A stretch of DNA of 27,594 nt from a virus: the IMG/VR virus record IMGVR_UViG_3300037358_000096, positions 1-27,594 of that record, one strand, 5' to 3'. A model generated the notes under the pieces. The model was not told where the DNA came from and searched no databases. It worked only from the letters and a program-made list of their open reading frames with translations. Positions 4,354 through 25,759 of the stretch are shown in pieces; position 1 is the stretch's first letter; each line of letters opens with the position of its first letter. The translations under genes were made by a program, and so were the position numbers.

Positions 4354-4556
4354 GCGGTGGGTGGATCGGGAAACGGCATCCAATGAGTAGGTTGCGGTTT
4401 CTCGGCGTCGTCCTCCTCGTCGGGGTTGGTGCTGTCATGCCAACCGTCACCGTCGTCGCTGAGCCAACCGACAAAGACGCGCGTCCCGTTCCACAACAAC
4501 ACGTGCGCTTCGTCTCGCTCGGGCGAGTACGTTTCTATCGGTTGCCAGTTTGTCAT
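4350..4556 (-). CDS. DUF551-like small protein
   Basis: 68 residues from the ATG at 4554-4556 (ATGA overlap upstream). It begins NWQPIETYSPERDEAHVLLW and closes with T-H-W-M-P-F-P-D-P-P, with G-W...D-G-W-H-D between, which is the DUF551 pattern (W-x-P-I-x-T...V-x-V-x-W...T-H-W-M-P-L-P-x-P-P). These small proteins are common in phages and have no established function. A partial second copy of the N-terminal motif is fused to the neighbouring zinc-ribbon gene. Confidence 0.75.
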   Translation of the reverse strand: MTNWQPIETYSPERDEAHVLLWNGTRVFVGWLSDDGDGWHDSTNPDEEDDAEKPQPTHWMPFPDPPTA

Positions 4557-4972: not shown

Positions 4973-5296
4973 TCACCCGGCCCTCCGCCGTGCCGCCCGG
5001 CGCAACGCATCGTGCCGGTCGGATTTCAACGCGGCGATCTCTTTGCGCGCCAGGAACAGCTCAGAGCGGGCTTCATTGCGCTCGCGCTCGTATTGCGTCG
5101 AAAGCACTTGCATGCGGTTCCACCATTCGATCTGGCAGGCCGTGACGGAGAGCGTCGCCTCGCGTGATTTCAGCTCGGTAAGCTCGGTAGTCAGTCGCGC
5201 AATGGTTTCGTCGTTGCGGACGCACTCATCCAGCGCGGCGTCCCGTTCTTTGAGCGCATGAAGCAACGCTCGTCCGCCCATGTCGTCTGCCATCAT
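4973..5296 (-). CDS. Coiled-coil small protein following the portal gene
   Basis: 107 residues, ATG at 5294-5296 in ATGA overlap with the portal stop. Almost the whole chain is helical with heptad-like spacing (DETIARLTTELTELKSREA, ERERNEARSELFLARKEI) and ends in a basic tail (ALRRAARRRAG). No enzymatic motif is seen. Immediate coupling to the portal gene suggests a role in head assembly, such as a portal-associated or scaffold-like factor, but this is an inference from position and coiled-coil content. Confidence 0.65.
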   Translation of the reverse strand: MMADDMGGRALLHALKERDAALDECVRNDETIARLTTELTELKSREATLSVTACQIEWWNRMQVLSTQYERERNEARSELFLARKEIAALKSDRHDALRRAARRRAG

Positions 5297-6834
5297 CCAC
5301 CTCGCATTCGCCTGACCCGTCGCGCCGCGCTGACTTCCAGCATCCGCTTGATCACTGCGGGGTCGGTCGCGTTGGCCGATGCACCGTAAGCCGCCTCGTC
5401 CGAGATGTCAGGCAGCCCCGCCGAATCCCGCAGTACGTTCTCCAGGTCGGCGTCCGGGAACAATTGCGCGCCGGCCATTGCGAGGTTGTTGATGTAGCCG
5501 CCCAGGCTGTCGAGATCGATGCGCTGCGCGAGGTCGGGCACGTATTCCGGCATCAACGCCGGGTCCAGCGCGTTCAGGCGCCAGATGCGCGGCAGCAGAT
5601 GCCGGTTCAACACCCCGGCGATGCCGTTCACCCAACCCTCGATTGCCTGAAAGAACATGTCCACTTTCGACAGGCTCAACGATTGCGTGCCGCGCGAGGA
5701 ATGGCCGAGCGTCAGAAAGTCGGCCATCACCGTGGTCATGATGTCGGTTTTATAACGCTGGATGATCGTGTCGGTGTTGAGCGCGCCGCTCGACCGTCCC
5801 TCCGGTGTCGTCAGCTTGAACTCGTACATGCGCACGCTCGACGGACCGTTCATGGTCTGGAACGTATCGGACGGCAGGATCACGCCCATCTGCTCGTCGA
5901 TGCGCACGTTGGTGATGATCGCCTTGTACGACGCCAGCGCCAGTTGCGCCCTGGCGTCGCCGTTGGCGGCGGCTTCAAGCAAGGCATTCGGCACGTAGAG
6001 CGTCGGCAGGCCGCCGAACCGCTCGACCATGATAGCCTCTTGTTCCTCCAGCCGGCGGATGAACGAGTACGGCCGAAACGAATTGCGCAGGATCGAGCGA
6101 CCTTCGGGGTTGCCCTTATGCATGCCGGGGCGGAACAAGAGGAATTTCTCGATCGGCAGATCGATCAAAGTCCCGGTGTATGGCTGCTGCGTCAGGCCCT
6201 TGATGCCGCCCGACTGATCGAGAAACCATTTGATGACGGTGTCCTGGCCGCGCAACGGCATGCGCCGGATGCCGATCCGCCCGTCGTTGAACTTGCTGGT
6301 GGGCAGCGGGATGCCGTCGAGCACCGGCGGGTTCGATCCGAGCCGCGCCTTGTAAATGATCTCGTGCGGCGCGTAGCCGTACGACAGCATCGACAACGCC
6401 TCGATGATGAAGTCTTCCCACGTGTTCGTCATGTCGAACCGCAGCGAGTCGGCGAAGTCGGCCATCTCCTGCGCGTCGGGTTTGTCGGATGCCGGCTCGA
6501 CCCGCCATTCCACCTTGCGGATCGACTGCATGATGGCGAACAGCACGGCGCCGACGGTGGGCGAGTTGTCGGTCATCTCGCGATACACGCGGGCGCCTTG
6601 CTGGCCCACGAGCTGCGGGAGGAATTCTTCGCGGATCCATCCGGAGAAAGCCCGCAGCCCGGACGAACCAACATCGGCGAACGTCATGCCCGACATCATC
6701 TGCGGCATGAACATCGTGCCGCCGTCGCGATACGGGCCTTGCCGTGCAGCGATCTCGCGCGCCGCCGCCTCGGTTGCGATCGGATCGGTGATCGGACCTT
6801 GCGTGGCTTCGGTGTTGATCGGGACTTCAGCCAT
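5293..6834 (-). CDS. Phage portal protein
   Basis: 513 residues, typical portal length. The region near residues 105-170 (VEWRVEPAS, then helical segments, then LSMLSYGYAPHEIIYKAR) is the portal wing/stem pattern shared with DUF935/Mu gp29-like portals. Later segments include FLLFRPGMHKGNPEGRSILR and AIMVERFGGLPTLYVPNAL, matching the region in which portals bind DNA and neighbouring subunits. A ring of twelve such subunits forms the DNA entry channel of the capsid and docks the terminase. It lies between the terminase and head genes in the expected order. ATG at 6832-6834. The precise portal subfamily is assigned by eye. Confidence 0.88.
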   Translation of the reverse strand: MAEVPINTEATQGPITDPIATEAAAREIAARQGPYRDGGTMFMPQMMSGMTFADVGSSGLRAFSGWIREEFLPQLVGQQGARVYREMTDNSPTVGAVLFAIMQSIRKVEWRVEPASDKPDAQEMADFADSLRFDMTNTWEDFIIEALSMLSYGYAPHEIIYKARLGSNPPVLDGIPLPTSKFNDGRIGIRRMPLRGQDTVIKWFLDQSGGIKGLTQQPYTGTLIDLPIEKFLLFRPGMHKGNPEGRSILRNSFRPYSFIRRLEEQEAIMVERFGGLPTLYVPNALLEAAANGDARAQLALASYKAIITNVRIDEQMGVILPSDTFQTMNGPSSVRMYEFKLTTPEGRSSGALNTDTIIQRYKTDIMTTVMADFLTLGHSSRGTQSLSLSKVDMFFQAIEGWVNGIAGVLNRHLLPRIWRLNALDPALMPEYVPDLAQRIDLDSLGGYINNLAMAGAQLFPDADLENVLRDSAGLPDISDEAAYGASANATDPAVIKRMLEVSAARRVRRMRGG

Positions 6835-7090: not shown

Positions 7091-8530
7091 TCATGGCCCC
7101 AGGTTTCGTGGTGTCATCGCAACGATTGCACCGACGATTGGAGTTGGCGGCGTTAGTGCGACATGTGAAAATGCCCGCGCCAAACTATCAACCTGGTCAT
7201 CTTTTGATCCCGCCGGAAACGAACCCAACTCGTCAATGAACGCCTTGTTCCACTGCCCGCGCACCATCAGCAGATTACCGACGTTGCACTGACTGGCGAC
7301 CGGCGAGGCGCGGGTTGCCTTGTCACCGGTCTCCGGCGAGGCGCGCACCGTGTAGCCGGCCAGTTGTCCGATGATCCATTGCGTCTGCGCCTTGCCGGCC
7401 TGGCCCGGGTCGATCGGCAGATCGATCGGCACGGCCTTGCCGTCCTGCGTTGCGGTGGCTTTGATCAGTTGCAGCACGTCGGCCGGGCCGCCGCGTGCGC
7501 GAACCACGTCCATGACGATGTAGCGTGCGTCAGGCAGCCGTCCGAGACGTACACCCACCGTCCAGTCCGGGTCGCGCGTTCCCGTCTTCGCGGTGGCGGC
7601 CAGGTCCCACGCGCGCACCTGGGCAACGACCGGTGGACACGCATCGAGCACGGTAATGAACGCCGGCTTGAACAGGGCGCCTTCCTGGGGGCGTGGTCTT
7701 TGCTGGTACTGCGCCGCCCATTCGCGGGTGGCCCCGCGCGCCTCAAGCGAGGCTTTGATCCCGGCCAGTTCGGCGCCGTAGCCGTAGGCATCGTCCGACC
7801 ACAGCAATTCGCCCGGCGCGCGGCCGAGCGGATCGTCACCGTCTTCCGCCTCAGCGCGCAACGTCAGCACGCGCCAGCGGTCCGGCTCGGTTTCCAGCAG
7901 CATGCCGGCCAGGTCGGCTTCGTGCCACCTGGTCATCATCAGCACGATGGATGCGCCCGGCGTGAGGCGCCGCTCCAGGTCGCCGTTGTACCAATCCCAG
8001 ACCAACTTGCGATCGGCTTCGCTGTCCGCCGCCTGCCTACCCTTCACGGGATCGTCGATCACAACACTGTCTGCGCGGAAGCCGGGCAGCCCGGTGCGCA
8101 CCCCGGCCGCGAGATATTCGCCGCCGTTGGTTGTGCTCCACCGCCCCTTGGCGTTGGAACGCAGGCTGTACCCGAGGGTCAGCCGGTTCTCGTTGATGAT
8201 GTCGTGGATCTTCCCGGAAAAATCGTCGGCGAGTTCGGACGTGTGGCAGGCGCCGATCAGCTTCATGTTCGGCCGGCGCGCGAGCTGCCACGCGGAGAAC
8301 AGGCGCGTCGCGTAGAACGACTTGGCCGAGCCCGGCGGACAGAACAGCATCAGCCGATTGACCTTGCCGTCCGCCACCGCTTGCAATTCATCGATGATCA
8401 GGCGGTGATGCGCGGCCGGCTTCTGGCCGTAGGGTTTGAGCGCGGCGAGACACCAGGAGAAGAACGACCGGCGACACTCGCGGCGCTGGTTGGCCTCTTC
8501 AAGCAATTGCCGCTCCATGGCGGCGGACAT
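7091..8530 (-). CDS. terL: Terminase large subunit (DNA-packaging ATPase/nuclease)
   Basis: About 479 residues. The ATPase half has a Walker A variant C-P-P-G-S-A-K-S preceded by strand RLMLFC, a Walker B-type V-V-I-D-D-P, and the coupling segment IVLMMTRWHEADLAG. The C-terminal RNase H-like nuclease half shows the first aspartate in R-A-W-D-L-A-A-T and a late acidic motif K-D-D-Q-V-D-S-L-A-R-A-F. It cuts concatemeric DNA and pumps it into the head through the portal. The start is uncertain: ATG at 8528-8530 is used; TTG at 8549-8551 or ATG at 8516-8518 are possible, and none has a clear ribosome site. The long plus-strand frame opposite it (7364-8548) is a shadow. Confidence 0.93.
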   Translation of the reverse strand: MSAAMERQLLEEANQRRECRRSFFSWCLAALKPYGQKPAAHHRLIIDELQAVADGKVNRLMLFCPPGSAKSFYATRLFSAWQLARRPNMKLIGACHTSELADDFSGKIHDIINENRLTLGYSLRSNAKGRWSTTNGGEYLAAGVRTGLPGFRADSVVIDDPVKGRQAADSEADRKLVWDWYNGDLERRLTPGASIVLMMTRWHEADLAGMLLETEPDRWRVLTLRAEAEDGDDPLGRAPGELLWSDDAYGYGAELAGIKASLEARGATREWAAQYQQRPRPQEGALFKPAFITVLDACPPVVAQVRAWDLAATAKTGTRDPDWTVGVRLGRLPDARYIVMDVVRARGGPADVLQLIKATATQDGKAVPIDLPIDPGQAGKAQTQWIIGQLAGYTVRASPETGDKATRASPVASQCNVGNLLMVRGQWNKAFIDELGSFPAGSKDDQVDSLARAFSHVALTPPTPIVGAIVAMTPRNLGP

Positions 8531-8544
8531 GCGGAGAGTGACAG

Positions 8545-8751
8545 ATGACAAGGGATGTGACCGCGTTGGAGCATTGGCGAATTGACTTGCAGATCATGCT
8601 CGATCATCTCGTTGAAAGGCTTCGCGGATCCGGGCCGAACGTATTGTCGCATCCGACGGACTGTTGCCTCGACAAAGCCGCAGGCGCGCTAGAACTGGCG
8701 CTTCAAGATATCGACCGCGACCTCGCCCGTGCGAACGCTACAGCGAGTTGA
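8545..8751 (+). CDS. Small helical protein divergent from terminase
   Basis: 68 residues from the ATG at 8545, with GGAGAG seven bases upstream. The sequence looks natural and helical (ALEHWRIDLQIMLDHLVERL, AAGALELALQDIDRDLARAN). It is on the plus strand between two minus-strand genes, diverging from the terminase start and overlapping the 3' end of the glycosyltransferase gene by 14 bases. No family is recognised. Confidence 0.55.
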   Translation: MTRDVTALEHWRIDLQIMLDHLVERLRGSGPNVLSHPTDCCLDKAAGALELALQDIDRDLARANATAS

Positions 8752-12541: not shown

Positions 12542-12837
12542 GCTGCGGCCTGATCTTTTGGCATGTCGCCCTCGTGAATGTCGGGTTTCTCATCGCCAAC
12601 CTGCTTCTCGCGTGGCGCGGGGTTCGCACGCTGCGCAACCTGCGCAAGGCACGCGCCATGTTGGACGCCACCGACAATAAACGGACTGACCTGCGCGTGC
12701 GCATGGAGCAACACTTACCGCCGCCGCCTGAGGCGTGGCTCTGTCGGGTCTGCGGCGCCAATCTGGCCTACAACCAGCCGGTCGCGCCGTCGTGCCCGCC
12801 GCACTGCCCGCTGCTTGATCCCGCCACCATCCCTTAA
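12538..12837 (+). CDS. Membrane-anchored zinc-ribbon protein
   Basis: 99 residues, last of the plus-strand chain. Residues 3-26 (CGLIFWHVALVNVGFLIANL) form one hydrophobic membrane-type helix, followed by a basic helix (RTLRNLRKARAML) and a C-terminal cysteine site: W-L-C-R-V-C-G, then C-P-P-H-C. A membrane anchor joined to a zinc site is suggested. No family is recognised. Its stop overlaps the convergent HTH gene by four bases. Confidence 0.6.
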   Translation: MSCGLIFWHVALVNVGFLIANLLLAWRGVRTLRNLRKARAMLDATDNKRTDLRVRMEQHLPPPPEAWLCRVCGANLAYNQPVAPSCPPHCPLLDPATIP

Positions 12838-13295
12838 CGCCGCCGCTCGCGCCGCGCGCTGAGCTTGCGCAGGCGCGCCTCGATCTCCGCGTCAGTCATC
12901 TTCGTTGGATCGTCGCCATCCCCGTCAGCGACCACCAGACGTTCGCTGCGCACCCAACCGTGCGTCTCCAGGTAGAAGATTTGCGCCTTCAGTTCGCCGC
13001 CCGGGTTGGCTGGCGTTCCGCGCGCCCTGGTCACCAGCTTGCCGGCGATGTCGGCCGTGATGAGGGCGTACGACGTGTCCAGTTCGCGACGATAGGCTCT
13101 CCGCAACACCGGCTCGGATATCCGCAGGCACCGCGCGATCAGGGCCTGATCGATGTTGGCGAGCACCAGGCGTGCCACGTCGGCGCGGCCTTGTTCGGTT
13201 GCCACATAAGCCGGCTTGCCGCGACCGCGTTTGGGTGGGGCAGCATGCGGTATTTTCGCAGGTTTTGCCGGTAACTTTACCGGCTTGCGAGCCAC
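12834..13295 (-). CDS. Small-terminase-like helix-turn-helix protein
   Basis: 153 residues from a GTG at 13293-13295, one base after the CtrA-like gene's stop. A basic tail (KLPAKPAKIPHAAPPKRGRG) precedes a helix-turn-helix (ADVARLVLANIDQALIARCL, RISEPVLRRAYRREL), then a helical segment ending in FYLETHGWVR. This order (HTH; L-R-x-x-x-R-x-E-L; A-x-I-F-x-L-x-x-x-x-W) is shared by many phage proteins annotated as small terminase subunits or HTH factors. It is far from terL (7091-8530) and on the same strand, so small terminase is possible but not certain. A perfect palindrome lies in its first codons. Confidence 0.65.
   Translation of the reverse strand: MARKPVKLPAKPAKIPHAAPPKRGRGKPAYVATEQGRADVARLVLANIDQALIARCLRISEPVLRRAYRRELDTSYALITADIAGKLVTRARGTPANPGGELKAQIFYLETHGWVRSERLVVADGDGDDPTKMTDAEIEARLRKLSARRERRR
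13267..13284. promoter_or_regulatory. Perfect inverted repeat in the start of the HTH gene
   Basis: GCCGGTAACTTTACCGGC has eight-base arms and a two-base centre. It lies at codons 4-10 of the HTH gene 12834-13295. The symmetry fits a dimer-binding operator or a short hairpin that could affect translation. It also encodes the basic tail, so chance codon use cannot be excluded. Confidence 0.4.
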
Positions 13296-13296
13296 G

Positions 13297-13986
13297 TCAC
13301 GCGACCTGGAGTGTCGGCTCGCGCAGGATGTAACCGCAGCCCCAGATGGTATCGATCAGACCCGGCACGCCGGCAGCGTCGAGCTTCTTGCGCAGCCGGC
13401 AGATGATCACGTCGATGGTCTTCATCTCCGGCTCTTCCATACCGGTATAGAGATGATTGAGGAACGCATTCTTGTTCAGGATGATGCCCTGCTTGAGGAA
13501 CAGCAGTTCCAGCACGCCGAACTCGCGGCGCGACACCGACAGCTTCTGTCCGTTCACCCGCACCTCGTGGCGGTCCAGGCTGAGCTCCACGGGCCCAAGC
13601 CGCAGCACCGAATTGGCATGTCCCTGGCTGCGGCGCACGACGGCGCGGATACGGGCCAGCAGCTCGTCCGGGCTGCATGGCGTGGTGATGAAATCGTCGG
13701 CGCCGTCGTCAAGGATTTGCGCCTTGAGATGCGGCGACAGGCTCTGCGCCAGGACGATCGTGGGAGTCGCAAGGCCGATCCCGCGGGCTGCGCGGATCGC
13801 CTGACGGGCGGGAATGTCCGGCAGCGCGTAATCCATCAGCACCAGCTCGTAATCGTAGAGCCGCATGAACTCGATTGAGTCGGTCCCTGACTCGGTGTGC
13901 TCGATGCTGATGCCATGCTGGCGCAGAATCGTTGCGTCGTCCCGGCCGGCGATCATCGGCGTGCGACCGACCCTGAGTATCAGCAT
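13297..13986 (-). CDS. ctrA-like: CtrA-like response regulator with degenerate receiver
   Basis: 229 residues from the ATG at 13984-13986 (GGGAGT upstream). The receiver half aligns with CtrA, the essential alphaproteobacterial cell-cycle regulator: YDYELVLMDYALPD retains the phospho-acceptor aspartate (D52). The acidic pair near residues 7-9 is replaced by G-R-T, the conserved Ser/Thr is A80, and the conserved lysine is T102 (F-I-T-T-P). The winged-helix half is well kept: SVSRREFGVLELLFLKQG, NAFLNHLYTGMEEPEMKTID, ICRLRKKL and TIWGCGYILREP, versus WGRGY in host CtrA. CtrA binds TTAA-N7-TTAA sites and blocks replication initiation. The receiver is probably phosphorylation-independent. It lies in a minus-strand unit with 12834 and 13991. 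Confidence 0.88.
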   Translation of the reverse strand: MLILRVGRTPMIAGRDDATILRQHGISIEHTESGTDSIEFMRLYDYELVLMDYALPDIPARQAIRAARGIGLATPTIVLAQSLSPHLKAQILDDGADDFITTPCSPDELLARIRAVVRRSQGHANSVLRLGPVELSLDRHEVRVNGQKLSVSRREFGVLELLFLKQGIILNKNAFLNHLYTGMEEPEMKTIDVIICRLRKKLDAAGVPGLIDTIWGCGYILREPTLQVA

Positions 13987-13990
13987 GCGG

Positions 13991-14266
13991 TCACTCCCAG
14001 GACGGCCGTAGCAGGTAGCGTGGTTCGTCTGGCCAGATGGCCACGATGATCGCGACCTCGCCGGCGACGGTCCCCGCAGCCGTCGCAGCCGCGCCAGGGC
14101 GAATGACATCGCCGCGCGCGACCTGGGCCAGGTCCCGCCGCTCGGCCACGTCATCACATAGACGGTCAATCCATTCGTCCTGCGCGCACTGCGCGACCAG
14201 ACGCACCCGCTGCACATCCGCAGGCGACGCGGCTTGTAGCCACGCATGAGACTCCGATGGGTGCAT
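13991..14266 (-). CDS. Hypothetical protein upstream of the CtrA-like gene
   Basis: 91 residues from the ATG at 14264-14266, with GGAG eight bases upstream. The first half is helical with acidic and arginine residues (ASPADVQRVRLVAQCAQDEW, then IDRLCDDVAERRDL). The second half is alanine/glycine-rich and ends in VAIIVAIWPDEPRYLLRPSW. No family is recognised. It is four bases from the CtrA-like start, so both are probably made from one message. The plus-strand frame opposite is a shadow. Confidence 0.55.
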   Translation of the reverse strand: MHPSESHAWLQAASPADVQRVRLVAQCAQDEWIDRLCDDVAERRDLAQVARGDVIRPGAAATAAGTVAGEVAIIVAIWPDEPRYLLRPSWE

Positions 14267-14351
14267 GCGGTGGCTCCGCGACCTGGAGACGCGAAACTGC
14301 GATTGCTTCGCCGATCATGGCGGCTACGCAATAATATTAGCGGTTAAATTG

Positions 14352-14398
14352 TTGGCTTCCTGCCGCGGGATGTCACTATGTCGTTGCTACCACACACC
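14352..14398 (+). promoter_or_regulatory. Promoter/leader element upstream of the DUF932 gene (copy 1)
   Basis: TTGGCT (14352-14357) is followed 17 bases later by ACTATG, and then by a conserved leader ATGTCGTTGCTACCACACACC. Nineteen of 22 leader bases match a second copy at 15825-15846, and the TTGGC is similarly placed there. An A/T-rich island (14329-14351) lies just upstream. The rest of the divergent gap 14267-14438 shows nothing else definite; it must also hold the promoter for the leftward gene at 14266. Confidence 0.5.
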
Positions 14399-14438
14399 GA
14401 CACGATATCCCAACAACCCACGACAGGAAGCACCCCCT

Positions 14439-15545
14439 ATGTCACACGAACTCTCGATCCGCAACGGCGTCGCCGAGATGGCTTACACAGGCGAGACACC
14501 GTGGCACGGCCTCGGCCAACAACTCGCAGTCGGCGCACCCATCGAGGAATGGATCGTCGCCGCCGGCATGAACTGGAACATTGACGCCGCCACCGTCGAA
14601 TTCGAAGCCGCCGGACACCGTCACGTCATGTCCGACCGCGTCGTGCTGCACCGCTCCGACACCTTCGCCCCGCTCGCCACCGTGTCGACCTCATACAATG
14701 TCGTGCAGCCCGGCCACGTGCTTGAATTCTTCCGCGAGCTGACCGACGCCGCAGGCTTTACCCTTGAGACCGCAGGCGTCTTGTTCGGCGGCAAGCGTTT
14801 TTGGGCCCTCGCCTCGATCGGCGCCGAGGCCGCGATCCTCGACCCGGCCGACAAGATGCGCCGCTTCCTCATGATCACGACCGCGTGCGACGGATCGATG
14901 TCGACACAAGCGGGCTATTACGACATCCGCACCGTTTGCAATAACACGCTGCAGGCGAACCTGAACCGCACCAAGGCCAAGGTCACCGTCAGCCACCGCA
15001 CCACGTTTGACCCCAAGGCCGTGCAACGTGACCTCGGGATCGAAGCCGCCCGCAGCGAATTTGAAGATGCCATGCGCGACTTCCGCCGCATGTCTGAGAC
15101 CCGCGTCGACCCCGTCGACGTGATCAAGGCCACCGCCGAATTGTTCGCCCCGGGCTTCGCCGACAAGGAGCGGGCCGAACAAGCCAAGCTGCTCGAAAAG
15201 ACCACTGGCCCAATCCACCGCGTTGGCGAGCTGGCCCTCGATCGCAAGGGACTGATCGGCAGCGACCTGGGCGGCACGCAAGGCACCGCGTGGGGCTGGC
15301 TCAACGCCGTGACCCAGTACATCGACCACGAAGCCCGCGCCAACAGCGTGGACACCCGTCTGAACTCCGCATGGCACGGCCGCGGCAACCAGATCAAACA
15401 GCGCGCCCACGAAATGGCCGTCGAAATGATCCGCGCCGATGGCTCCGTGCACACTGTCTACATCGCCGACAATCAGGACGCCGACGCAGACCACGCGCCC
15501 GGCCTGCTTGACGACATCCTGGCCGCCGCACCGTCCCACGTCTGA
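14439..15545 (+). CDS. DUF932 family phage/plasmid-like protein
   Basis: 368 residues from the ATG at 14439, eight bases after AGGAAG; the in-frame extension back to 14265 is not needed. The N-terminus G-E-T-P-W-H-G-L-G and V-S-x-x-Y-N-V-V-Q-P, followed by F-G-G-K-R-F-W-A-L-A and RTVCNNTLQANLNRTKAKVT, are hallmarks of DUF932 (TIGR03299) proteins. Length matches the family. Homologues occur on plasmids and phages and are often highly expressed, but no biochemical activity is firmly established. It has its own promoter-like leader and is followed by a strong hairpin. Confidence 0.88.
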   Translation: MSHELSIRNGVAEMAYTGETPWHGLGQQLAVGAPIEEWIVAAGMNWNIDAATVEFEAAGHRHVMSDRVVLHRSDTFAPLATVSTSYNVVQPGHVLEFFRELTDAAGFTLETAGVLFGGKRFWALASIGAEAAILDPADKMRRFLMITTACDGSMSTQAGYYDIRTVCNNTLQANLNRTKAKVTVSHRTTFDPKAVQRDLGIEAARSEFEDAMRDFRRMSETRVDPVDVIKATAELFAPGFADKERAEQAKLLEKTTGPIHRVGELALDRKGLIGSDLGGTQGTAWGWLNAVTQYIDHEARANSVDTRLNSAWHGRGNQIKQRAHEMAVEMIRADGSVHTVYIADNQDADADHAPGLLDDILAAAPSHV

Positions 15546-16871: not shown

Positions 16872-16910
16872 CGGCCTACGAGTGGCGCCTGATCATCACC
16901 GGCTAGGCCG
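16872..16910. terminator. Possible bidirectional hairpin between convergent genes
   Basis: CGGCCTA (16872-16878) pairs with TAGGCCG (16904-16910) across 25 bases, in the gap between the convergent ASCH and ABC-GNAT genes. A second, shorter palindrome ATGGCTGAGCCAT lies at 16857-16869. No T-runs follow, so termination is a guess from position. Confidence 0.3.
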
Positions 16911-18030
16911 CCCCGACGAGCCGTTGCGCGTCAGCCAGCGGCATCGCCGGACCCTGATAGCTGAACACCGCGCACGGCCGGCCGCCGAACGATCCCGGCA
17001 CGACGCTGTGATTGTTGGCGGTGATCGCCGTCGAATAGTTCGGCATCACATAGCCCGGCTTCTTTTCCAGCGCCCAGACGCGCGAGCGATCGAACGAGCG
17101 GATCAGGCTCGGGTGCGCGGGGTATGCATGATAGCGACGCCCCAGCGCCTTGTAGGCAGCCCCGATCCTGTCCGCGAGAGCGAAGGCCAGCCCGAGGCCC
17201 TGGAAGTCTGGCAACGTCACCAGACGGCTCATGCCGTAGATGCCTGACACCTTCGGGTGCGGCCGATACATGACCCCGGCGAACGCCGCGGGCTGGCCAT
17301 CGATCGTCAGCACGTAGCAGCGTGCAGCCTTGGCCAGGCTCGCCGTCAGATAGTGAAAACGAGCGAAGAGTTGCCACGCTTCGTAAGGGGCTCGGTGAAT
17401 GGCGCATACAACATCGGGACGTCGCTGAACCGCCCTCCATCTGAAAGTCATGGTCGCCGGCTCAAGCACCCAATCCGGTTGCAACCAATCTTCCAGGTCG
17501 AAATGGCACGTGGCGGCGACGAACCGCCGGCCGGCCTTGCGAATGAATTTCTGCACCGCGTACGAGCCGATGCGCGCAACCTGACGATCGACCACCGACG
17601 TGAACTCATCGCACGCGACCAGCTCGCCGCCTTCCAGCAAGCGCCGCGCGAGGTCAACGCGGAACTTCTCGCCGTTCGACAGCACCGCGTACGGCCGCAG
17701 CCATGCCGGGATCGTGTTGAAGCCCACGGCCGCGCAAATCTTCGCCACGTCGTCGACCGTGTGCCGCTTGTCGAAATCGTCAATGACCGATGCACCCGGC
17801 CATTCGAATTCGCTCGGCAACCCGAACACCTTGCGCAGGATGGAACTCTTGCCGGAGCCCGACGGCCCAACAATGAGGCCCACGTTCCAGGCCTTGCCCT
17901 CGATTGGGAAATCCCCGTGCCATTCGCACCGCTGCGTATCGGTCGCCGGCACGTCAAACATGCTCGACACCTGTTTGGCGCGCACGCTGGTGCTGATCTT
18001 CGTCTCGACTACAAGATCAATGGGCGGCAT
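16903..18030 (-). CDS. ABC ATPase fused to a GNAT acyltransferase domain (COG2401-like)
   Basis: 375 residues from the ATG at 18028-18030 (GGGAGA upstream), overlapping the ParB-like gene by 22 bases. The ABC half has Walker A G-P-S-G-S-G-K-S-S (55-63), signature L-S-N-G-E-K (117-122), Walker B L-V-A-C-D-E-F (137-143) and an H-loop histidine in A-T-C-H-F-D (H176). There are no membrane segments, so it is not a transporter. Residues 205-340 form a GNAT-like domain with R-L-V-T-L-P-D-F-Q-G-L-G-L (269-281), the acyl-CoA-binding loop. This architecture is COG2401. The GNAT part recalls Mu Mom-like acyltransferases that modify adenine in DNA. DNA or tRNA modification is therefore possible, with substrate unknown. 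Confidence 0.85.
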   Translation of the reverse strand: MPPIDLVVETKISTSVRAKQVSSMFDVPATDTQRCEWHGDFPIEGKAWNVGLIVGPSGSGKSSILRKVFGLPSEFEWPGASVIDDFDKRHTVDDVAKICAAVGFNTIPAWLRPYAVLSNGEKFRVDLARRLLEGGELVACDEFTSVVDRQVARIGSYAVQKFIRKAGRRFVAATCHFDLEDWLQPDWVLEPATMTFRWRAVQRRPDVVCAIHRAPYEAWQLFARFHYLTASLAKAARCYVLTIDGQPAAFAGVMYRPHPKVSGIYGMSRLVTLPDFQGLGLAFALADRIGAAYKALGRRYHAYPAHPSLIRSFDRSRVWALEKKPGYVMPNYSTAITANNHSVVPGSFGGRPCAVFSYQGPAMPLADAQRLVGAA

Positions 18031-18815
18031 TTGATCTCCCTGCCTTGCAGCTCTTCCAGCAGCTCGGCTTGCTGATCTTCGCCGCCGGTGCACTCGATCA
18101 GGATCTGATACGTCAGCCCGGCCGACAGCGCCGCCGCGGTGGACTTCTCCTCATCGATCGGCAACAGCAGCTCGCGCAGATCTTTGTTGTCAAAGCCACT
18201 GAGTGCCAGGTCAAAGCCGCCGGTCATAAGCGAGCCCAGCTCGACCTTCAGCAGCTCTTCGTCCCAGCCGGCATCGAGGGCCAGCTTATTGTCGGCGATG
18301 ATGTACGCCTTGCGCTGCGCCGCCGAGAGGTGCGCGAGCTCGATGATCGGAACATCTCTCATTCCGAGCTGTTGGGCGGCCAGCACGCGACCGTGACCGG
18401 CGACGATGCCGCGCTTGCCATCGGTCAAAACCGGATTGGTGAAGCCGAATTCCCTGATACTCGCCGCGATCTTGTCGATTTGGGCCGCAGAATGGGTGCG
18501 CGCGTTGTTCGCGTAGGGGATCAGCGCCGCCACTTTGGCGATTCGATAGGCCGGGAATCGGTGTGCGACCAAGTCTGATGGTGCCGATTCGTTCTCAGTC
18601 GGGACTTCTGCCCTGGACTCTGCCGGCGTGGTCCCGCGGGCGCGCCGCGGGGTGTCGTCAGCCGGGTTAGGGAGGACTCGCCCGGCCGACTCGCGCGCGC
18701 CCGCGAGGGGGAAGATATTGGTGGCCGCCGGCGGCGACCCATCGGCGTCTACTCTGCGCTTGTTCGGTGTGCCGGCCTTCCGGCCACCGGTCTTAGGTCG
18801 TGTCGGTGGCTGCAT
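18009..18815 (-). CDS. ParB-like nuclease-domain protein
   Basis: 268 residues from the ATG at 18813-18815 (weak ribosome site). A basic N-terminal motif P-K-T-G-G-R-K-A-G-T-P-N-K-R-R and an unstructured linker to about residue 80 precede the ParB/Srx-type domain at 98-175: ARTHSAAQIDKIAASIREFG, then TNPVLTD, then V-A-G-H-G-R-V-L-A-A-Q-Q-L-G. This sub-type often occurs fused or adjacent to DNA methylases and modification genes in phages. The G-H-G-R variant of the G-E-R-R motif is typical of that group. It overlaps the ABC-GNAT gene, so the products probably act together. Plasmid-style partition is unlikely because no ParA is seen. Confidence 0.83.
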   Translation of the reverse strand: MQPPTRPKTGGRKAGTPNKRRVDADGSPPAATNIFPLAGARESAGRVLPNPADDTPRRARGTTPAESRAEVPTENESAPSDLVAHRFPAYRIAKVAALIPYANNARTHSAAQIDKIAASIREFGFTNPVLTDGKRGIVAGHGRVLAAQQLGMRDVPIIELAHLSAAQRKAYIIADNKLALDAGWDEELLKVELGSLMTGGFDLALSGFDNKDLRELLLPIDEEKSTAAALSAGLTYQILIECTGGEDQQAELLEELQGREIKCRPLIL

Positions 18816-18832: not shown

Positions 18833-19567
18833 TCAAGTCCGGGCGGCTCGCTCTACTCGCCACACCTGGCTCGGATGCCATTGGTCACCGCCTGACGGTG
18901 GCCGAATACCGCGTGCTGTCAGCGCAATTGCCACCTGTGACAGCGAATTGGCGCCAGCTTTGCGCGCAGCGGCGATGTAAGGCAGCACGTCGGCCGCATG
19001 TTCTGTTGCCAAGCGGGAACGTTCTGCTCGCGCGCCGCGCATGGCGCCCGGCGTGCCAGCCGGCAGATGGGGATTACCCATTTGGATACCGCGCGCTTTC
19101 GCAGCCGCCATTGCCGCCTTGGTCCGTTGGCTGATCAGGCCAGCTTCAAATTCGGCGACCGCGGCGAGCAATGTCACCATGAACGTTCCAGCCGGCCCAG
19201 GCGGAAGTTGCGGCAAGTCACAGAACGCAATGCCGCCCACACCAGCGCCGCGCACGATGGAAAGTAGAAATTCGGTATCGCGGGCGAGACGATCGAGTTT
19301 GGCAATGATCAGGGTCGCGCCGCGCGCCCTCGATGCAGCCAGCGCCAGCGCGAGCTGCGGGCGGTCGCGTCGCTTGCCGGACTCGACCTCCTCGAATTCG
19401 GCAACCAGCGTGCCTGGCGCTCCGGTGACATAGCGAGAAACGGCTTCCCGCTGGGCATCCAGGCCGAGCCCGCTACGGCCCTGTTTGTCAGTACTCACGC
19501 GATAGTACGCGACGAACCCTCGGATTTCGGAGGCGCCACGACGCACCACAGGGCGACCACGGGGCAT
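18833..19567 (-). CDS. Serine recombinase (resolvase/invertase family)
   Basis: 244 residues from the ATG at 19565-19567 (AAGGG upstream). Y-Y-R-V-S-T-D-K-Q-G carries the catalytic serine S25, K-L-D-R-L-A-R-D the conserved arginines R93 and R96, and EFEAGLISQRTKAAMAAAKA the long E helix with Q-R-T. The C-terminal 50 residues (SLSQVAIALTARGIRPPSGG then WHPSQVWRV) form a helix-turn-helix. The protein is longer than a classic resolvase (about 185) but far shorter than large integrases, so inversion or resolution is more likely than phage integration. The gene follows the HNH gene and precedes the ParB-like one. No paired recombination sites were identified. Confidence 0.88.
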   Translation of the reverse strand: MPRGRPVVRRGASEIRGFVAYYRVSTDKQGRSGLGLDAQREAVSRYVTGAPGTLVAEFEEVESGKRRDRPQLALALAASRARGATLIIAKLDRLARDTEFLLSIVRGAGVGGIAFCDLPQLPPGPAGTFMVTLLAAVAEFEAGLISQRTKAAMAAAKARGIQMGNPHLPAGTPGAMRGARAERSRLATEHAADVLPYIAAARKAGANSLSQVAIALTARGIRPPSGGDQWHPSQVWRVERAART

Positions 19568-19622: not shown

Positions 19623-20213
19623 CTACGCCGCGCGCCGTCGAACCTCGATGAACGCGGCAAGATCCGCCATGAATCGATGGTGATCGTCGATGTATTCCGC
19701 GAGCTGGCGCAACCGCCGTGGCGAGTCCTGCACCGCGCCAAGCGCCGTGTTGCACCCGCCGCACAGCAAACCTCGAACGCGGCCGGTGAAGTGACAGTGA
19801 TCAACGTGGAGCTGTCGCGGCCCGGGTCCCATAGGATCGTCGCATGATCTGCAACGGCCGGCCTGGTCGCGCACCATCGTGTCAAACTCTGCGTTCGTCA
19901 GGCCATACTTACTGACGCGCGCCTTGTCAGCCGCCGCCCGACGAATCGCTGGATCGGCCGCGTAGAGGCGTCGGTTGCGTCGCAATCGTTTGCGATAGGC
20001 TTTGGGGGTCTCGCGAGGACACAGCAACGGTTTGAGTGCTGGCGGCGCTGGCGCCGGCGCAAGTGGTCGTTCGATCAACGGAACACCGAGAGCCAGCAGT
20101 CGGCGCAGCACCGTCGCCTTGTTCGGCGTTCCAGCGACCCGACCGCCCGTTTTGCGGCGCTTCGCCCGCGGTTGAGCAGACACGGAGTCAGGGTGGTAAG
20201 ATTGGTCAGCCAT
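19623..20213 (-). CDS. Endonuclease VII-like HNH nuclease
   Basis: 196 residues from the ATG at 20211-20213. The C-terminal half has C-R-S-C (121-124), L-H-V-D-H-C-H (135-141) and L-L-C-G-G-C-N-T-A-L-G (149-159), the zinc and catalytic pattern of recombination endonuclease VII, which cleaves branched DNA such as Holliday junctions. The N-terminal part carries R-K-T-G-G-R-V-A-G-T-P-N-K-A, nearly the same basic motif as in the ParB-like protein, then a proline-rich linker. Phage homologues can resolve replication or packaging intermediates, and some behave as homing-type nucleases. It is expressed from its own promoter at 20278-20306 and begins the leftward cassette. Confidence 0.85.
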   Translation of the reverse strand: MADQSYHPDSVSAQPRAKRRKTGGRVAGTPNKATVLRRLLALGVPLIERPLAPAPAPPALKPLLCPRETPKAYRKRLRRNRRLYAADPAIRRAAADKARVSKYGLTNAEFDTMVRDQAGRCRSCDDPMGPGPRQLHVDHCHFTGRVRGLLCGGCNTALGAVQDSPRRLRQLAEYIDDHHRFMADLAAFIEVRRRAA

Positions 20214-20277
20214 GGTGAGGTCACATCTCATCGGGTCAGAGGTGGCGCTCGCCCTTGCCGGGGCTGCGCTGCCTCGC

Positions 20278-20306
20278 ATTCTACTCGGAATGCGCCGTAT
20301 ATGCAA
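20278..20306 (-). promoter_or_regulatory. Sigma70-type promoter TTGCAT-N17-TAGAAT
   Basis: On the minus strand TTGCAT (20306-20301) and TAGAAT (20283-20278) are separated by 17 bases, giving a start site near 20271 and a leader of about 58 bases to the HNH start at 20213. It probably drives HNH, recombinase, ParB-like and ABC-GNAT genes. The 60 bases upstream (to 20365) are A/T-rich and hold no gene. Confidence 0.65.
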
Positions 20307-20365: not shown

Positions 20366-21205
20366 TTAAATCGCAGAGGCTTCGCCGATTACCTCGACAA
20401 CGCTTTGCCGCATTTTGGTCGGCACGTTGTCGCGGTTGAACCAGCCCATCAGCATGACCACGCGTTCGCCGTCGCTCATTTCGCAAATGCCGGCGCGGTC
20501 CAGCAGCGGTCCGTCAACCAGTCGCAGAGCGGTGCCCGCGTCGATCGGCTGTTCGCGGTCGCGTGGCGCGCGATAACCGGGCGGGTAGAAAACGCCCTCC
20601 GGCGACAGCTTGGCGCAAAGCCATTCGATGGCGCGGTCAGCGACAGGGATCGGTATGCCGACACCGTTGTTGACGACGTGGCCGCCGCAAATGATGCGCT
20701 CGACGCTGTCCATCGCCGGGATCAAATGCCAGCGCGGGTCGGCCAGATCCAGTCGCACGATCACGTATCGGACAAACAGCGAGTCGAAACGCTCTTCCCG
20801 CGAACGCACATATTTGCCGGCGGGCGTGCGGTGGGCGCGCACGGCAGGTCGATAAAGTTTGGCGGTCAGGATCTCGAAGCCGGCCTCGCGGATTTCGAAC
20901 TCGGCCAGCGCGGTGGGCGTTGCGCGGGCAATCGGGTCGCCGCTGTCTTCGAACGCCTTCCGCTGCGCCTCGGCAAAGCGGAACCCGACCTGGCTGTCTT
21001 CGCCCAGGCGGTGCACCGCTCGGACCACGTACCAACGAAGCCCGTCGGTAGAGGGCGGCGTTATTGTGCACGGGCGACCGGCACCGGCGCGTGCGCCACC
21101 GCTGTTCAGACGAGCGCCGCCTGAATTGCGCCGCGCACCGCCCGCATTTTCGCGCGCACCGCCGCTGTTCGCGCGCGCGCCGCCATGTCCATTGCCATTG
21201 GCGAT
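20366..21205 (-). CDS. NusG/RfaH-like transcription antiterminator
   Basis: The conserved part begins with W-Y-V-V-R-A-V-H, the first strand of the NusG N-terminal (NGN) domain. RFDSLFVRYVIVRLDLADPR, matching the pattern L-F-x-x-Y-x-x-V, and WHLIPAMDSVERIICG follow, and a KOW-like G-T-A-L-R-L-V-D-G-P-L...V-V-M-L-M-G-W ends the chain. An N-terminal array of G-G-A-R-x-N-S/A repeats and G-A-G-R-P precedes NGN. NusG proteins bind the RNA polymerase clamp and suppress pausing or termination. The start is unclear: homologous-looking sequence begins A-N-G-N-G-H-G right after an ATC codon at 21205-21203 that has GGGGGAAG upstream; in-frame ATGs at 21382 or 21439 would add a low-complexity extension. 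Confidence 0.75.
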   Translation of the reverse strand: MANGNGHGGARANSGGARENAGGARRNSGGARLNSGGARAGAGRPCTITPPSTDGLRWYVVRAVHRLGEDSQVGFRFAEAQRKAFEDSGDPIARATPTALAEFEIREAGFEILTAKLYRPAVRAHRTPAGKYVRSREERFDSLFVRYVIVRLDLADPRWHLIPAMDSVERIICGGHVVNNGVGIPIPVADRAIEWLCAKLSPEGVFYPPGYRAPRDREQPIDAGTALRLVDGPLLDRAGICEMSDGERVVMLMGWFNRDNVPTKMRQSVVEVIGEASAI

Positions 21206-21468
21206 GATGCTTCCCCCGGCTTGATACCGTCTGCCGGGAGGCCCGCGCGCGTGCGCATGCGATCCCGGGCGGTGGATCTTGCTGCTGCTGCTGAATAAAG
21301 GGGATTTTCGCAGATAGCTGCCGCACGACGCATGCAGGCCCTCGTCTGGCACCCGCGCATCACCGGCGGCAGAGACAAGCATAACGAAAGGGGGGGTGTC
21401 CATCTGGGTTAAGTGGCCCGGTGGCGATGCGTCCGCCATGATGCAAGTCAGCCACAAGGTTAAACGAT

Positions 21469-24302: not shown

Positions 24303-24508
24303 GCCGCAGCCTCGACCGGTTGCACGCAGGCGCTGCACAGATCGTCCCTGACCCAATGACAGGCCTGCCCGGTACGCTCGATGCACTGACGGCAGTCGTT
24401 GTCGGTGCAGCCGCACGAACGGCAGGTTCGGATCATGGCAGCGGTCAACGCCAGTTGGGTTTGGCCGTGCGCCGGCACTTGAGGTTTGAAGCGACGCGAT
24501 CGGATCAT
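24299..24508 (-). CDS. Cysteine-rich phage protein (C-G-C-T-D type)
   Basis: 69 residues, ATG at 24506-24508 in ATGA overlap. The second half R-T-C-R-S-C-G-C-T-D-N-D-C, then A-C-H-W-V-R-D-D-L-C-S-A-C is a recurring phage motif in which C-x-x-C-G-C-T-D and C-x-W-V-x-x-D-L-C-S-x-C form a zinc site. The first 24 residues are basic. Proteins with this motif are common beside phage replication and regulatory genes; the function is not known. Confidence 0.7.
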   Translation of the reverse strand: MIRSRRFKPQVPAHGQTQLALTAAMIRTCRSCGCTDNDCRQCIERTGQACHWVRDDLCSACVQPVEAAA

Positions 24509-25320
24509 GGGTGCGCCTCACGAATGACCGGCGCGTGTTTGACGTAAGCGACGCTGACGTGATCCTTGCAGTAGGGACGGCCAGGATCGGATGGTACATC
24601 GCAGAAACGAAAGGATCGCGCGCCGGGCTCGCCGATCGGCCAGCAACATTCGACGACGGGCCCGACGCGCGGCGCCACCACAACGGGCTGCTCGGCAACG
24701 CGGACCCTGGGGGCTGCCGTCAGCGGACGATTAAGTGCGATGGGCGTCAGGCGTTTCGGCGTTGCGATCTTCGGGGGTGCGATCTTCGGGGCTGCGACCT
24801 TCGGTGCGCGCGGCTCCGAAGTTGCTTTCCTGGAAGCGTAGTATTTACGCTGCGTCTCCAAACGTCGGGCGTGGCGTTCTGCGGGCGAGAGCGCAGCGGC
24901 GCGGCGACGCTCCCTCTCCCCCGGGGGTGTCTTCCCGGTATAGCCGCCAGGACGGGCGTCGATGGTTCCGTTCTCGATCAGCCGGTGGGACTGGCCGACG
25001 GCCGCGCCTTTGGTGATTCCCATGCGCCGGCCGATTTCGCTGATCGAATGCCCCTCGCGCCAAAGGGTCCGGTACTGCTCGACCAGGTCGTCAGGCCAGG
25101 CCGGATTACGCAGCGCGAGAAGGCCGGCCTTCAGCAGGCGCCGCAGGCTACAGAACAACGTGGAATCTTTGGCTCCGAGCTGTTCGGCGATTTGAAGTAG
25201 CGGCACGCCGGCCGTGTGCGCGCGATGAAGCGCAAGCAGACGGTCGACCGGCCAGTCGCGGGCGACCAGCGGCGCGAGCCGAGCCTCCAGCTCCACCGTG
25301 GTCAGTGCCTCGCCGCTCAC
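24505..25320 (-). CDS. gcrA-like: GcrA-like cell-cycle regulator with two HTH units
   Basis: 271 residues from a GTG at 25318-25320 (GTGA overlap with the other GcrA-like gene). Residues 76-122 (WPDDLVEQYRTLWREGHSIS, E-I-G-R-R-M-G-I-T-K-G-A-A-V-G-Q-S-H-R-L) match the GcrA DNA-binding domain. Residues 225-262 (C-C-W-P-I-G-E-P-G...F-R-F-C...G-R-P-Y-C-K-D-H...A-Y) match the C-terminal GcrA domain that holds the sigma70-interacting region. An extra HTH-like unit occupies residues 8-70, and a lysine/proline repeat (P-K-I-A repeated, 173-190) links the domains. Host GcrA activates promoters with methylated GANTC sites. The phage copy is about 100 residues longer than host GcrA. Confidence 0.85.
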   Translation of the reverse strand: MSGEALTTVELEARLAPLVARDWPVDRLLALHRAHTAGVPLLQIAEQLGAKDSTLFCSLRRLLKAGLLALRNPAWPDDLVEQYRTLWREGHSISEIGRRMGITKGAAVGQSHRLIENGTIDARPGGYTGKTPPGERERRRAAALSPAERHARRLETQRKYYASRKATSEPRAPKVAAPKIAPPKIATPKRLTPIALNRPLTAAPRVRVAEQPVVVAPRVGPVVECCWPIGEPGARSFRFCDVPSDPGRPYCKDHVSVAYVKHAPVIREAHP

Positions 25321-25652
25321 GGCGAAGCTCCTGATCGCAGCTCGCTCGGCAACGGCGGCAGCGTGTGGGCGCCGTAGGGCAGCGGGCGCGATCGGGACAC
25401 GGGGACGGCAGGCTCTCTGGGCAGCGGCGACGCACGGCCCGGCAGAACTCCTCGGGCTTTGAGCCGGCCCACTTTGCCGATCACGGCGTTTTTTGAAACG
25501 CCAAGCTGGCGGCCAATTTTTGACGCGGACTCTCCGGCCCACCATTCGCGGCAAAGGGCGACCATGAGGTCCACCTGCCAGGCCCCGCGCCATCGGAGAC
25601 GACCGTGGGTCAGGGCGATGCGCAGCTCGGCCTCGCCGAGCGGGGCGGTCAC
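25317..25652 (-). CDS. Second GcrA-like protein, N-terminal domain only
   Basis: 111 residues from a GTG at 25650-25652 (GGAGG is about 13 bases upstream, so the start is tentative). Residues 26-68 (VDLMVALCREWWAGESASKI, G-R-Q-L-G-V-S-K-N-A-V-I-G-K-V-G-R-L) are a near-canonical GcrA HTH, closer to host GcrA than the neighbouring protein. The C-terminal cysteine/histidine domain is missing; the rest is proline-rich. Without the sigma70-contacting part it might compete with host GcrA for GANTC sites or work with its neighbour. Bases 25653-25759 upstream hold no supported gene. Confidence 0.8.
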   Translation of the reverse strand: MTAPLGEAELRIALTHGRLRWRGAWQVDLMVALCREWWAGESASKIGRQLGVSKNAVIGKVGRLKARGVLPGRASPLPREPAVPVSRSRPLPYGAHTLPPLPSELRSGASP

Positions 25653-25759
25653 GGCGGCGCGTCCGCCTCCCGGTCGTTAACTGCGCCACGCCAGGAATTG
25701 CTTGAAGGAATCGGCCGAAAATGGGAAAGACCGGGCTGATACATATCAACTTTCACCAG

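Follow-up and report, generated by a model that had tools for sequence, protein, structure and literature searches.

A CtrA-family response regulator in a tailed phage and its cellular relatives in the Tad pilus loci of Acetobacteraceae

Introduction

CtrA, whose canonical box is TTAA-N7-TTAA, is a master regulator of the cell cycle and of pilus genes in Alphaproteobacteria. Phages are known to read the CtrA of their hosts (PMC9437464, PMC10589892). The locus described here raises the question of what a phage would do with a CtrA-family gene of its own, particularly one whose product retains the phospho-acceptor Asp and little else of the phosphorylation pocket. The initial annotation proposed that the phage had dismantled the pocket of a CtrA homolog and that the targets of the protein were those of host CtrA. 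The window, i.e., the whole stretch of DNA that was analyzed, comprises all 27,594 bases of an IMG/VR record that is classed as virus and is perhaps a fragment.

Phage setting and gene map

The features of the window that are referred to below are as follows.

5293-6834, minus strand: Mu-type portal
7091-8551, minus strand: large terminase (TerL)
12834-13295, minus strand: likely small terminase (TerS) gene, 59 to 60% identical to homologs in phages L070 and L071
13297-13986, minus strand: CtrA-paralog gene, 229 amino acids, with the ATG at 13986 and the stop codon ending at 13297
13315-13623, minus strand: winged-helix DNA-binding domain, residues 122 to 224 (identity and dN/dS against the nearest cellular paralogs)
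13336-13338, minus strand: codon for the wing residue C217 (WGCGY), a paralog signature (residue alignment)
13375-13425, minus strand: recognition helix, residues 188 to 204, of which 188 to 202 are the same as in the cellular paralogs L006 to L009
13624-13986, minus strand: receiver domain, residues 1 to 121 (Pfam, model pLDDT of 92, match to 4qpj_C, residue table)
13831-13833, minus strand: codon for D52, the remaining phospho-acceptor Asp (residue alignment)
13991-14266, minus strand: 91-amino-acid open reading frame (ORF) of no known family, ending 4 bp upstream of the CtrA-paralog ATG
14348-14376, minus strand: sigma-70-like promoter match GTGACA-17-AACAAT, a weak consensus match only

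The Mu-type portal, the large terminase, and a Mu-F-like head protein form a minus-strand packaging and head block of a tailed phage. The ORF at 12834-13295, which begins 1 bp downstream of the CtrA-paralog gene, matches a PHROG to which no function is assigned and is likely the small terminase; its homologs in L070 and L071 are placed between a ParB-like gene and TerL. The 91-amino-acid ORF and the CtrA-paralog gene are probably on the same transcript, and the sole sigma-70-like promoter match (1 found, 0.4 expected) lies ahead of the run that these two genes form with TerS. A longer version of the CtrA-paralog ORF with a TTG start (at 14331) was dropped because close homologs begin at the equivalent ATG. 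A chimeric contig or host contamination was also ruled out, as the gene sits between phage genes and only the CtrA-like ORF matches the bacterial Tad loci described below.

The remainder of the window has several other recognizable genes. A DUF932/TIGR03299 phage-plasmid-like protein is encoded at 14265-15545 on the plus strand, opposite to the CtrA-like run. The minus-strand ORF at 16903-18093 (phrog_11143, 5e-95) fuses an ABC-type ATPase part to a GNAT acetyltransferase part and has relatives with ∼65% identity in the related phages L149 and L152. Three consecutive minus-strand genes encode a resolvase-type recombinase (18833-19567), an endonuclease VII-like protein (19623-20306), and a NusG/RfaH-like protein (20366-21457), the last of which has a 51% identical relative in L070. 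Two adjacent minus-strand ORFs, at 24505-25749 and 25317-25652, match Pfam GcrA (1e-19 and 4e-9); the score against the NCBIfam GcrA model, whose cutoff is 280, is 61 bits. Together with the CtrA-like gene, they give the phage relatives of two cell cycle regulator families.

Receiver and DNA-binding domains of the phage protein

The product of the ORF is an intact OmpR/PhoB-type protein (Pfam Trans_reg_C, 7e-17; Response_reg, 3e-11). It matches the NCBIfam CtrA model (NF045991) with an E value of 8e-68 and a score of 228 bits (228.5), which places it below the CtrA threshold, the equivalog cutoff being 350 bits. These matches are far above chance and, with terminase, portal, and head genes in the same record, they bear out the initial description of a CtrA-family protein in a phage.

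Residue alignment likewise agreed with the initial annotation on the ORF, its coordinates, and the residues that it had named. The stretch R5-V6-G7-R8-T9 stands where CtrA has its acidic residues, Ser is replaced by A80, Lys by T102, and the wing Arg by C217, so that D52 is the only one of the canonical receiver residues (acidic pair, phospho-Asp, Ser/Thr, and Lys) to be kept. A protein lacking the acidic pair, the Ser/Thr, and the Lys is unlikely, judging from the alignment, to work as a normal phospho-switch, and to this extent the impaired pocket seen at the outset stands. Structure prediction (pLDDT, 92) added that the receiver fold is kept, the receiver model aligning with the Brucella CtrA receiver 4qpj_C at a TM score of 0.85 on target. 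The full-length model aligns with DNA-bound PmrA and DNA-bound CosR at TM scores of 0.66 to 0.69, with domain orientation in such predicted models being no reliable sign of an active state. A retained receiver fold without the pocket residues is the pattern of atypical, phosphorylation-independent OmpR/PhoB regulators.

The recognition helix reads KTIDVIICRLRKKL in the phage protein and in the cellular paralog described below, versus KIIDVFICKLRKKL in canonical CtrA, and it fits the paralog pattern K[TA][IV]DV[IL][IV]CRLRKKL. The winged helix had been called nearly CtrA-like, which holds loosely, at ∼55% identity of the DNA-binding domain to canonical Acetobacteraceae CtrA, whereas its identity to another cellular protein is 92 to 94%. 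This canonical comparison rests on CtrA genes fetched from Acetobacteraceae genomes and not on the Caulobacter CtrA reference row, which served for numbering and as one of the 35 canonical rows of the tree.

A paralog clade in Acetobacteraceae

The four close cellular relatives found among 84,980 species genomes, L006 to L009, are 66 to 79% identical to the phage protein over the alignment, and all come from Acetobacteraceae metagenome-assembled genomes. Weaker paralogs were found in nine further Acetobacteraceae genomes, the whole set of 13 spanning 44 to 79% identity. In the family of one close relative, 208 of 249 genomes have a CtrA-family match and some have a second, divergent copy; the 13 paralog-bearing genomes read are a lower bound, since further genomes also have two matches. 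Ordinary CtrA is also present in all 12 paralog genomes for which both proteins were in hand. At a strict cutoff of 1e-70, the 337 genomes sampled from the class yielded no clade members besides that of L008 itself.

All 13 cellular paralogs have the acidic pair replaced (by RVG, QVG, HVG, RIG, or RTG) and the Lys residue (Lys101) replaced by T, A, S, L, or V; the D52 equivalent is kept in 12 and is Arg in L077. Canonical CtrA retains the acidic pair in 33 of 34 sequences and the Lys in all 34. In three proteins of the canonical type (L051, L090, and L046), the phospho-Asp is changed to Glu (D51E), with the Lys kept. In a maximum-likelihood tree, the paralogs split from canonical CtrA with SH-aLRT support of 100, and the window protein, rather than clustering with CtrA orthologs, groups with L006 to L008 inside the paralog clade (support of 99). 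Since the acidic pair and the Lys are missing from all 13 paralogs and the window protein nests within them, the loss of the pocket predates the phage, contrary to the initial view that the phage had dismantled it. The wing Cys fares no better as a phage change, with WGCGY occurring in 9 of the 13 cellular paralogs. Capture of the gene by the phage, following ancestral loss of the pocket in bacteria, is thus well supported by alignment and tree, and the bacterial host of the phage is likely a member of the Acetobacteraceae.

Neither a single-sequence search nor an alignment of the five closest proteins retrieved viral relatives. The closest match in a phage collection, L002 (57%), was discarded as a phage copy, being a 4-kb "UNVERIFIED" fecal scaffold whose other ORFs look bacterial; one of these encodes an 895-amino-acid membrane protein. 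The papers searched contain no description of a Tad-linked CtrA paralog or of its capture by a phage, which is weak evidence of novelty.

Location of the cellular copies in Tad/Flp pilus loci

By synteny, checked against Pfam, the majority of the cellular copies belong to Tad/Flp pilus loci; the arrangements in the 13 genomes are as follows.

L077: CpaB-CpaA-Flp pilin (two)-transglycosylase-paralog, diverging from TadG-TadE-TadE
L008: paralog-transglycosylase-GT87-Flp-CpaA-CpaB-CpaC-CpaE-CpaF
L009, L078, L079, L080, and L081: TadG (mostly with TadE) divergent from the paralog
L007 and L082: Flp nearby
L006, L076, and L083: transglycosylase seen
L075: LuxR-type neighbor only

This gene order suggests that the cellular paralog regulates the Tad pilus locus. 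A flagellar regulator of the Rem/FtcR type, suspected at one stage from the nearby transglycosylase, was dropped because the neighbors are Tad/Flp genes. Near-perfect CtrA boxes lie 26 to 58 bp upstream of the paralog ATG in L077 to L081 (5 loci, versus 0.4 in shuffles, with none of 500 shuffles reaching as high), which suggests that ordinary CtrA acts above the paralog in these genomes. The CtrA-like gene is all that the window and the Tad loci have in common, and this argues for the capture of a single gene.

A candidate operator upstream of the paralog

In 10 of the 13 paralog loci, the palindrome TTAGGCC-N4-GGCCTAA, or a close form of it, is located 97 to 126 bp upstream of the ATG, and in each of these 10 a leave-one-out weight matrix ranks it above every other site in the fetched locus. 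Examples upstream of the paralog are positions 5897-5914 in L009, 3779-3796 in L077, 9741-9758 in L078, and 4939-4956 in L079; a second, weaker palindrome follows 14 bp on in L077 to L080. At no more than one mismatch, the palindrome was found in 6 of the 18 genomes searched, in one copy each and upstream of the paralog in five of the six, and in only 13 genomes of the 249-genome set. All 10 paralogs with the helix KT[IV]DV have it and none of the three with KAVDV do, a 10:3 split that is correlative and not phylogenetically independent.

The palindrome is able to fold as an RNA hairpin. Because its spacer varies and some pairs are broken (L006, L008, and L075), a DNA site fits better in our judgment. 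The palindrome is a candidate operator for the paralog and for the phage protein, although it could instead be an RNA hairpin or the operator of another factor.

The window contains no such site: its best score is 6.8, compared with 17 to 27 in the hosts, and neither the region between TerS and TerL nor the stretch upstream of the run that carries the gene has one. Hence the fragment offers no sign of activity of the phage protein. Most cellular copies combine a Tad/Flp location with the upstream palindrome; the phage copy has neither and is therefore a transferred relative by descent and not a resident member of such a locus.

Selection on the phage copy

The two halves of the phage protein have evolved at different rates. 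The DNA-binding half is 92 to 94% identical to those of L006 to L008, which are 94 to 96% identical among themselves, and its dN (0.04 to 0.05) and dN/dS (about 0.07) are as among the cellular copies. The receiver is 66 to 70% identical to those of L006 to L008 (88 to 90% among themselves), with a dN of 0.22 to 0.26 against 0.06 to 0.08 among the cellular copies, i.e., three to four times higher. Both halves are under purifying selection, which is strong in the DNA-binding half. The conservation of that half and the higher dN of the receiver indicate that DNA recognition is maintained by selection and that constraint on the receiver has been lost.

Possible roles in the phage

The reading that we favor, with confidence slightly above even, is that the phage has captured a Tad-locus CtrA paralog, probably phosphate independent, that acts in trans on the Tad locus of the host. 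The paralog lineage of Acetobacteraceae lost its phosphorylation pocket within the bacterium, and by analogy with other atypical OmpR/PhoB regulators, the protein most likely dimerizes and binds DNA without phosphate. The phage has retained the DNA-binding half nearly unchanged while the receiver was left to drift, and it probably expresses the captured regulator along with the packaging genes. As the phage fragment has no site, the natural target would be the host operator that precedes the host paralog and the Tad genes, on which the regulator most likely works in trans. This would override the control that the host itself exerts over the display of Tad pili; both the direction of this regulation and any advantage that the phage draws from it are putative, the latter possibly consisting in the exclusion of pilus-using competitors or in holding a favorable surface state.

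Alternatively, the regulator could control the late or packaging genes of the phage itself through phage operators that lie outside the fragment or have diverged, so that packaging would be timed by the Tad or cell cycle state of the host. We consider this unlikely, although it would account for the CtrA-paralog gene forming one run with the small terminase, 1 bp apart, and the 27.6-kb record is perhaps only a fragment. It also draws on L070, in which the palindrome occurs twice, 14 bp apart, at 4452-4483 in a late cluster, 86 bp upstream of a 102-amino-acid ORF of unknown kind between TerS and TerL. The 14-bp spacing, which also speaks for the favored reading, is that of the main and secondary sites at four host loci (L077 to L080), both L070 palindromes are strong, and among 213 loci, the tandem form was seen only in Tad loci and L070. 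However, across all viral contigs, the tandem palindrome is found in 56 stretches, several of them strong and in unrelated viruses that lack the gene, so little can be concluded from the L070 sites by themselves; the absence of the palindrome from the window, including its TerS-TerL region and the stretch ahead of the gene's own run, further counts against own-gene control. The 102-amino-acid ORF has no other relative in viral_contigs. Strong palindromes in viral contigs without a CtrA-like gene include L218 (49-80) and L214 (443-474), both tandem, as well as L232 (4646) and L247 (3983). TerL-based relatives in Acetobacteraceae genomes were of no use for synteny, TerL alone being common with the window.

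The idea closest to the initial annotation, that a phosphate-free CtrA occupies host CtrA sites (origin and cell cycle promoters) regardless of CckA/ChpT, seems improbable. Membership in the CtrA family, the lost pocket, and a recognition helix similar to that of CtrA speak for it, but the helix and wing bear the changes of the paralog (I to T, F to I, K to R, and R to C), the DNA-binding domain has diverged from canonical CtrA to the extent given above, and loss of the pocket occurred in the cell lineage rather than in the phage. CtrA boxes are not in excess in the window either (11 seen, 11.8 expected), and the supposition that CtrA targets are addressed was not upheld.

Little probability also attaches to the receiver being a decoy or dimer partner, forming a heterodimer with host CtrA or the host paralog and so changing the activity or turnover of that partner. 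In favor of this, the receiver has retained its fold, and residues on the alpha4-beta5-alpha5 side such as K88, D97, D98, E108, and R112 do not vary across the five closest proteins; a partner-binding decoy should, however, conserve its receiver, which is the fastest-drifting part of the phage copy.

The gene is absent from all of the about 60 related phage loci that were reached via TerL, portal, and TerS and is therefore rare cargo. That a single phage among the relatives read has it, and that this copy sits on a long branch (0.78, versus about 0.1), would suit a functionless passenger, picked up by chance and decaying, but with an intact frame, purifying selection on both halves, and tight packing between two phage genes, such a fate is very improbable.

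The favored reading, action in trans on the host Tad locus, can be extended to a two-sided circuit, in which the Tad locus of Acetobacteraceae is run by a phosphate-blind CtrA paralog with a palindromic operator and phages join from both sides, one carrying the regulator and a sister phage the operator. This extension is tentative and rather doubtful; if true, phages could read or set the display of host Tad pili. A probably kinase-free regulator, in any case, occurs both as a Tad-locus paralog in Acetobacteraceae and as phage cargo, and if the palindrome is its operator, the way in which a bacterial family controls its Tad pili, and in which a phage takes over this control, becomes directly testable.

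Comparison with known systems

CtrA (NF045991) shares with the phage protein its domain order, its winged-helix fold, and family-level homology; the phage protein differs in lacking the acidic pair, the Ser/Thr, and the Lys, in its altered helix and wing, and in belonging to a separate clade whose cellular members co-occur with canonical CtrA in the same genomes. ChxR of Chlamydia, HP1043, and NblR are atypical OmpR/PhoB regulators that work independently of phosphorylation (PMC3960148) and, like the phage protein, have a receiver fold without the phosphorylation residues. The phage protein, in contrast, belongs to the CtrA branch, keeps D52, and is phage borne, and its phosphate independence is a prediction. 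DNA-bound CosR (PDB 8uvk and 8uvx) aligns with the full-length phage model at TM scores of 0.66 to 0.68, yet it is only 24 to 26% identical and comes from another organism with other targets.

Other alphaproteobacterial phages with CtrA-type DNA-binding genes are the Roseobacter phages RDJL6, RDJL Phi 1, and RDJL Phi 2 and the Paracoccus phage vB_PmaS-R3. Their ctrA-type genes, that of RDJL6 being only 462 bp long, encode products with only 38 to 46% identity to the phage protein over the DNA-binding half. Also comparable are TldR, by which phages control a host surface organelle via flagellin (PMC13418256), and the phage GcrA homolog of phiCbK (PMC3556154), both of which are, like the phage protein, regulators aimed at host surface or cell cycle genes. 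TldR is RNA guided, however, and GcrA belongs to another family, whereas the protein described here is a captured Tad-locus regulator with a putative target in the host Tad locus.
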